Below, one piece after another: positions 3,001 to 6,000 of a stretch of DNA of 64,000 nt (positions within the stretch are counted from its first letter, which is position 1; each line of letters starts with the position of its first letter). Both the position numbers and the translations under genes were made by a program. The notes beneath the pieces were generated by a model. That model was not told the origin of the DNA. It worked only from the letters and a program-made list of their open reading frames with translations, and did no database searches. Source of the stretch: Hyperoplus lanceolatus (Eukaryota; Chordata; Actinopteri; Uranoscopiformes; Ammodytidae); the NCBI GenBank assembly GCA_026929865.2, contig CM049407.1, forward strand, positions 18,896,001 through 18,960,000. The letters run 5' to 3'.

Positions 3001-6000
3001 GTAGTGGATAGCCCTTCCGGTGCAATTTGGCAGATGTAAACAATCCATTTCCGCCTATGGTCCCCGCTGTTCACAGTAATGTTGCAGTATGCTGGAGTTG
3101 CGTATTTAACTCTCCGCTCTGGAACCTGGTTTAAAAAGTTTAAGTTTTCAGCCCATGATAACGCTGTTGGAAAACATTACCGTGTAAACAGCCCCTAAGA
3201 GTTTCACAACCTAGGAGGAAACTGTGGCCCCCTGACAGTTTGCTGTCGAAAAATACTGATTCTGCCATTACGAGCCTCCTTCCACTGACCAGCACGCCGA
3301 CTCGATTTATAACCGAGGCCAGAGTTTAGCATTGAACTAGAAGTGGCAAAGTAGTGTAACTTTTCAATACTGTCAGCCCAGCCTAAATCTAAATAGCTCC
3401 TAGTACCATGAGGCGACTCATTATGCACAGTTTTTCCGACCCCATAAGGTACATTGCCTGCAGCCAGCGCAGGCTGTATAGGCACTGAGTGGGAATAGCA
3501 GAGGTGTCAATAATACGAATCAAAATAACAGTCAAATGAGAATGATATAGTAGTGTAAAGTTAAAATAACTCCTTGTTGTAGCTTTAAAATGTTGTGTAC
3601 TGTACAGAATAATTTACAGTAATCTTCACCCCATTTATATTTCCTTTTTATAGTGTAGTTCACCACTTTGCCCCAAGAGTATACACACACACACTAACCA
3701 ATCAAACCAAACAGTCAGAGACTTAATACAAGATGATGTTAAAGAGTAAAATGTGATGTTTATGAAAATAATGTCATCAAGAGATGAACGAATAATAATC
3801 ATCACAACCAGTGCAATGAGCCTATTGTACTGTACTGTATTAGCCTGGCTCTGCCCGCCCGCCTACTTCCGGCCAAATTTAATTTTCCCTTCAGTTGTCA
3901 GTTTTTGTGTACAGCGCATTTCCCAGATTCTCCGGAGAATCTACGATCGTCCAATCAGCGAACAGAGCGAGTGGCTGAGAACGCTCCAGTTTCAGTTGAA
4001 TGCTGCGTTCCTTTATACACGGAAGAAGGAGATTTCCCACTTGGTAGTTCCGAGTTCCGACCTGTCTGTGTTCCAGTGCATCTGCTCGCGAAAGTATGGA
4101 CGCCTAAAACCTTTCTCGTCCAAATAACTAAACCTTAGGCTCTAACAAGTTACTGTTGCCAGGTACCGGTAGATTCATAGACTACAATATGTAGTGAAGT
4201 CGGAAATTTCCGAGTTCCCTGTCCAACTGGAAGGCACCATCAAAAGCCGGCTCATGACACACGTGATGACCAAACGTGATGCGATTGGTTGGCTAATCCA
4301 GAGTGGCACTGGGCAGATCCAATAGTTTTAAACTTCGACAGACACCCGCCTCCAAGTGAGTTAACGTTTGCCAATTACAGCACTTCCAGACCTTCTGTAC
4401 AAATGAAATGAAGTACGATGGTCTGGTTGGACCAGGCTAGTACTGTATCAAACTGAGAAAAAAAACTGCCATAATGAGCCAACATCCATATCACACTGGC
4501 CACACAGATTAAAAGATAATATGGGTCTTACCTTTACAGAAGAACGTAGTACTTGATTTCCTAGGGAAAGTGGCTTCGGCAGGTCCAGGTATCATGGTAT
4601 GACAGCAGAGAACATGAGGCAAGAGATGGTTCCAGGTTGCAGCTATACATTCATGAGCAATGACAGGAGAATGTAAAAGTCAGTTATTGGGCATGATATT
4701 ATTTATTGTGAATATTTCAGGTTACATAATGTGATTTTTTTTTTAAAACATACATTGTAGGCCTACTGACAGCCACAACGGGTCGATTTGCTAAGAGTAT
4801 TTAGAAACATGCCCCTTGTTGGTAATCCTGTTATTGCTTAGTTTATATTTACCATTTCCTTCCAAAGCTCCCGCCATATCAATGTAGCTCTGCTGCCATG
4901 TTCGTCCCTCTTCTTAATTGTTATGGTTCATAATTCAGACCCCAACTCTGTCTCATGTTTGTTTTTGTTGTTTTTTTAGTCTGAAATGTGTGGTCAATTG
5001 TTTTAAAAGTAGGCTATCCGACAGCCTGAGCTACCCCGTCGGTTGTATTCTTCATACAGACATCCACTAGCCTGGTGCTACCAGACCATCGTACTTCATT
5101 TCATTTGTACAGAAGGTCTGGCAGTGCTGTAATTGGCAAACGTTCACTCAAGGAGGCGGGTGTTAAAGTTTATAACTATTGGATCTGCCCAGTGCCACTC
5201 TGGATTAGCCAACCAATCGCATAACGTTTGGTCGTCACGTGTGTCATGAGCCGGCTTCTGGCAACTGAAACTGGAGCGCGACTTCGACGTCATCGTTCTC
5301 AGCCACTCGCTCTGTTCGCTGATTGGACCGGCTGTCGAATCTCCGGCAAAACTGGAAAATGGGCTGTACACCCAGACTGACTACTGAAGGGAAAATAAAA
5401 TTTGGCCGGAAGTAGGCGGGCGGGCGGAGCCAGGCTAGACATCCACGACGTTACTGCCACCTTTGCCTTTCATACTAGTGACCACCCTGTCACTACACGA
5501 TCTGAGGAGCCTGCACGATATGAGGTGCGCGTGCACAAAATGGCCGCCATCGTTGACAGTCCGCTTAGAGCCACAGGCTGTGGCTGTATCTCGATTCAGG
5601 GGTTGCGGTCTCCGAAGGCTGCATTTGAAGACCGATTGCGTCATAGCGGCACGCAAAGGTTGTTCCATTTGCAAGGCTCCTCATATGCGGCCGAGAAATG
5701 CAGCCTTCGTTTCACGGTTTTGAAGGCTGCATCAGATGTATCCTTCGCAACCCAACATATCCCATGATTCATTGCGTTTTTTTCAGAGATGGCATACAAT
5801 AAAATAAAAAATAACAAAACAGCAAGGTGTTGCTCCATCTTCTTAACTTTTATCTTCCTTTCTTTTTTTCTTGTACTTTTTTTTCTTTTCGTCTGTTGAC
5901 AAGGCTGTTTCCGTTGGCAGCTATCAGGGTTGCTAGGCAGCACAGGAGCGGCGAGTCATCACGAAAGGTAACGGCTTGTTACGCAAACCGGAAATGCTCG

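Follow-up and report, generated by a model that had tools for sequence, protein, structure and literature searches.

Within a single stretch of 64,000 nucleotides from the genome of Hyperoplus lanceolatus (contig CM049407.1, positions 18,896,001 to 18,960,000; this whole stretch is called the window here), three sequences share the same ends, and each lies between two copies of a different 9-bp word. What kind of element are they, how far has it spread, and which enzyme moves it? We are confident that they belong to a young, high-copy, non-autonomous (MITE-like) family of cut-and-paste transposons, which comes in two size classes and would depend on a DDE-type transposase acting in trans with a 9-bp stagger. 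The family is a known, ordinary kind of mobile DNA, and a very successful one.

Using a script that pairs ends and measures exact flank repeats, we identified three copies of the element in the window, with lengths of 599, 370 and 595 bp and with the ends TAGCCTGG...CCAGGCTA. Copy 1 lies on the strand opposite to copies 2 and 3. A preliminary description of this DNA had placed three copies at 3841-4439, 5068-5437 and 61467-62061 with perfect 9-bp duplications, and all of these assignments were confirmed. The copies and their target site duplications (TSDs) are as follows.

3832..3840, no strand: TSD left of copy 1, 9 bp, GTACTGTAT
3841..4439, minus strand: copy 1, 599-bp class, with its 5' end (TAGCCTGGTCCAACCAGACC...) at 4439 and reading leftwards
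4440..4448, no strand: TSD right of copy 1, 9 bp, GTACTGTAT
5059..5067, no strand: TSD left of copy 2, 9 bp, GACATCCAC
5068..5437, plus strand: copy 2, 370 bp, 374-bp class, without the middle of the long class
5438..5446, no strand: TSD right of copy 2, 9 bp, GACATCCAC
61458..61466, no strand: TSD left of copy 3, 9 bp, CATTTTCTT
61467..62061, plus strand: copy 3, 595 bp, 599-bp class
61467..61474, plus strand: 5' terminal inverted repeat of copy 3, 8 bp
61480..61520, plus strand: subterminal inverted repeat CCAGACC...GGTCTGG of copy 3, near the 5' end
62054..62061, minus strand: 3' terminal inverted repeat of copy 3, 8 bp
62062..62070, no strand: TSD right of copy 3, 9 bp, CATTTTCTT

The end sequence itself is enriched in the window, where TAGCCTGG occurs seven times against a shuffle mean of 1.46; none of 100 shuffles reached seven. 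Six of these occurrences make up the ends of copies 1 to 3, and the seventh, at 23580, is unpaired. An alignment of copies 1 and 3 in 599 columns shows 10 substitutions and a single 4-bp gap, which agrees with the early estimate of about 10-12 differing positions.

The inverted ends are very short, as had been proposed: the terminal inverted repeat spans only 8 bp, and the regions just inside the two ends are dissimilar. One subterminal region contains the CCAGACC...GGTCTGG repeat, which is predicted to form a hairpin, judging from the fold of one representative copy, and whose arms are also present in copy 1, and the opposite region is G+C-rich. In copy 3, the longest frame between stops (98 aa) extends beyond the element, and the next (96 aa) is internal. 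A six-frame translation of copy 3 gave no Pfam match at E values up to 1, and none of the copies examined has a poly-A tail at its ends. With fixed ends carrying terminal inverted repeats, a TSD of fixed length, and a body that is small, high-copy and non-coding, the element has these attributes of a MITE-like transposon.

We scanned the genome (806,742,258 bases in 527 contigs) with the first 34 bases of the element's 5' end, which match exactly at 4,556 places, 2,225 forward and 2,331 reverse, a figure that counts intact 5' ends and not whole copies. The reversed pattern, used as a control, had no genomic match. For a sample chosen independently of overall similarity, we took the first 20 loci among the listed exact 5'-end matches, which all lie on contig 1. 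The 3' end was recognisable in 18 of the 20, although L058 retains just six of the eight tip bases, and the other two (L055 and L064) are truncated copies. The 18 complete copies, L058 included, fall into two groups of nine, one of 348-374 bp and one of 549-619 bp. The 374-bp class matches the long class over bases 1-199 and 457-599, so that, as judged from these alignments, the short class would be an internal-deletion derivative of the long class, or both would come from a longer parent.

Analyses of flanks and divergence used 38 distinct copies in which both ends could be recognised: the three copies of the window, 18 of 20 loci that were the best matches to copy 1 (all except L015 and L026), and 17 of the 20 contig-1 loci (all except the truncated L055 and L064 and L058, with its altered 3' tip). 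Within this set, 34 of 38 copies lie no more than 2.4% from the consensus of their class. Among the 28 long copies, 25 are at 0-2.4% and three at 8.3-10.7%, and among the 10 short copies nine are at 0.3-1.6% and one at 14.8%. Eighteen of the long copies came from the best-match list and lie at 0-0.7%, a low divergence that is partly due to the way they were chosen. We also aligned the ten long copies from outside that list (eight from contig 1, two from the window) to a consensus of their own; seven of them diverge from it by 0.5-2.2% and the remaining three by 8.1-10.5%. Together with the 4,556 exact 5' ends, the low divergence of the 38-copy set bears out the original suggestion of a recently mobile DNA transposon family. 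Three long copies of 612-619 bp (L053, L059 and L063) stand 8-11% off the consensus; they may represent an older subfamily or an older wave.

The 9-bp duplication, which had been put forward as a rule from three insertions, held when flanks from across the genome were compared. A perfect 9-bp repeat flanks 28 of the 38 copies, and no copy has a perfect duplication of 5, 6, 7, 8, 10, 11, 12 or 13 bp. Over all 38 copies, flank agreement is 96% at 9 bp vs 20-28% at the other lengths from 5 to 13. When flanks were swapped between copies, the best of 20,000 pairings agreed at 7 of 9 bases, a level reached in 69 of them. In the 18 contig-1 copies with a 3' end, the flanks match at 9/9 bases in 11 cases, at 8/9 in four and at 7/9 in three.

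One locus (L012, 102-1308) stands in for an empty-site comparison, as it contains one family copy nested inside an older family copy. Bases 1-57 of the older copy lie to the left of the insert and bases 49-599 to its right. Bases 49-57 (GTCTGGAAG) are thus doubled, and none are missing at the junction.

The 38 target sites also share base preferences. To the left of the duplication, T is found at -4 in 22/38 sites, G or C at -3 in 31/38 and C at -2 in 17/38; inside it, G is found at +1 in 21/38 and C at +9 in 14/38. On the right side, position +12 is C or G in 31/38 sites and never A, and +13 is A in 16/38. The resulting profile resembles its own reverse complement, with a column score of 0.376 vs a maximum of 0.122 in 2,000 shuffles. 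A palindrome count made site by site gave a weaker signal (3.105 vs a shuffle mean of 2.39), and here the shuffle maximum equalled the observed value. Such a symmetric preference fits a dimeric transposase, joining the two element ends to the two strands of the target.

These features suggest a mechanism of the cut-and-paste type. A DDE-type transposase encoded elsewhere would bind the two unlike subterminal regions and cut at the 8-bp tips. Both ends would then be joined to target strands at points 9 bp apart, and repair of the gaps would produce the 9-bp duplication.

The preliminary description had left the autonomous partner missing, and it is missing still: no transposase-bearing copy with the family ends was found at the MULE loci, at one P locus or by pattern searches for divergent ends. 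A profile search of the genome with PF10551 (MULE) returned eight matches. None of these PF10551-detectable loci, taken at 10 kb each, contains both TAGCCTGG and CCAGGCTA, and three of the eight contain one of the 8-mers; the best similarity between the MULE loci and the element had an E value of 2.2. At L037-L039, the MULE-domain genes are flanked by inverted repeats, which form blocks of about 550-660 bp and some shorter ones, and L039 has an open frame of 430 aa. The frames at L040-L042 look alike and appear by eye to be one host-type gene. The MULE locus at L038 is itself enclosed (2197-7807) by TAGGGCTGGCCCGAATA inverted ends with an 8-bp flanking repeat, CTGAATAC, and our guess is that this is a separate hAT-like element. 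P-type transposases gave 19 matches in the genome, and the one P locus that we inspected, over 5 kb, lacks the family ends.

We also looked for longer relatives with patterns that required the end of the element and forbade its next bases. This yielded 12 places in the genome where the 5' end diverges after base 54, and none where it diverges after base 195. No longer relative was present among the four of the 12 that were inspected. Three of these, the first of two places on C8 and the first place on each of C22 and C5, hold variants of the same short element, and at the first place on C15 unrelated sequence follows a stub. L055 was considered as a 5.4-kb element and rejected, being a truncated short copy, and a 29-bp stub in L055/L065 is part of a copy that an insertion of roughly 2 kb has split. 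The 3' stub at L060 has no 5' mate within the locus by the criteria used. A match in viral contigs (L066) ends at the limit of the pattern and was judged by eye to be due to chance.

What other origins could account for these repeats? Segmental duplication or a SINE-type retroelement could also leave dispersed repeats of high copy number and without coding capacity, but such an origin is contradicted by fixed ends, independent flanks and duplications of fixed length, by the lack of a poly-A tail in the copies examined and by a nested insertion that doubles exactly 9 bp. We consider it highly improbable. For a DNA transposon, drivers of the hAT, P, Merlin, Zisupton/KDZ and piggyBac groups have to be weighed. 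The TAG start is hAT-like, the 14-bp target motifs of P and hAT elements are palindromic, and this genome has P-type transposase matches, even if the single P locus inspected (1 of 19) is without family ends. The target of piggyBac is TTAA, whereas the target sites here are varied and their duplications 9 bp long. According to excerpts of the respective sources, P and hAT insertions tend to a 14-bp motif around a duplication of about 8 bp (PMC3706591), Merlin duplicates 8 bp (PMC10045372), Zisupton duplicates 8 bp, and hAT duplicates 8 bp, or 5-7 in variants (PMC12730594). Set against these lengths, perfect duplications number 28 of 38 at 9 bp, none at 8 bp and none at 5, 6 or 7 bp. We regard a driver from any of these groups as unlikely. 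The mismatch with hAT (8 bp) and piggyBac (TTAA) had been pointed out beforehand, and it stands on the duplication length and the varied target sites. Because of the duplication length, hAT, P, Merlin and Zisupton are disfavored, and MULE and AcademH remain among the groups considered.

By duplication length, therefore, the likeliest driver of the MITE-like family is a transposase of the AcademH lineage or one of the Mutator-like (MULE) group. The same kind of element could be driven by a MULE transposase, from a type whose inverted ends are very short. Nine bp, as found here, is the classical and typical duplication length of MULEs, and PF10551 matches do occur in the genome. However, there are just eight of them, with both family ends within 10 kb of none and with no similarity to the element better than the E value given above; moreover, three of the loci have long inverted repeats, compared to 8 bp in the family, and L040-L042 hold what appears to be a host gene. 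An excerpt of PMC10045372 gives duplications of 4 to 10 bp for MuDR with its IS256 relatives, a range that includes 9 bp, and we hold a MULE driver to be possible, if tentatively so. The same source, in the part that deals with duplication lengths, lists 9 or 10 bp for AcademH, the helicase-bearing Academ lineage, in agreement with the family here; the comparison is one of duplication length. Animals are among the hosts of AcademH, going by the title of a paper (Kojima 2020a) that PMC8290104 cites. AcademH elements have a helicase and a transposase, and neither was found with the family ends at the loci inspected. In our judgment, an AcademH transposase driving this same kind of element is a reasonable, still tentative, possibility. 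We find it rather improbable that the driver comes from a lineage that has so far not been linked with MITEs of vertebrates (e.g., AcademH or an undescribed relative of the hAT, P, MuDR and Academ group), which would have amplified thousands of passenger copies very recently and might be active even now.

Repbase and Dfam contain unclassified non-autonomous DNA elements from fish whose duplications are likewise 9 bp long. They are short and non-coding like the family here, a likeness of general description. The literature that we searched contained no description of the family among the matches listed, which were mostly unspecific. Beyond the preliminary description, our analysis adds the lack of coding capacity, the very high copy number, the two size classes, the symmetry of the target preference, and AcademH as a candidate driver on account of duplication length.

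With its thousands of 5' ends, near-identical sampled copies and exact duplications, the family is well suited as a source of insertion polymorphisms and as a bait for its transposase. If the driver is AcademH or a new lineage, a transposase that has been little studied would be connected with a passenger of striking success; if it is neither, the result is an ordinary gain in annotation.

Apart from the three copies, the window contains exons of an Eph receptor gene on the plus strand (45195-56033), whose frames match the ephrin-receptor ligand-binding, cysteine-rich, fibronectin III and tyrosine kinase domains. It also contains six long dinucleotide repeats, five of AC/GT and one of TA, at the following positions.

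14793-14914: dinucleotide repeat
16679-16807: dinucleotide repeat
31532-31694: dinucleotide repeat
35515-35607: dinucleotide repeat
53907-54023: dinucleotide repeat
54433-54587: dinucleotide repeat
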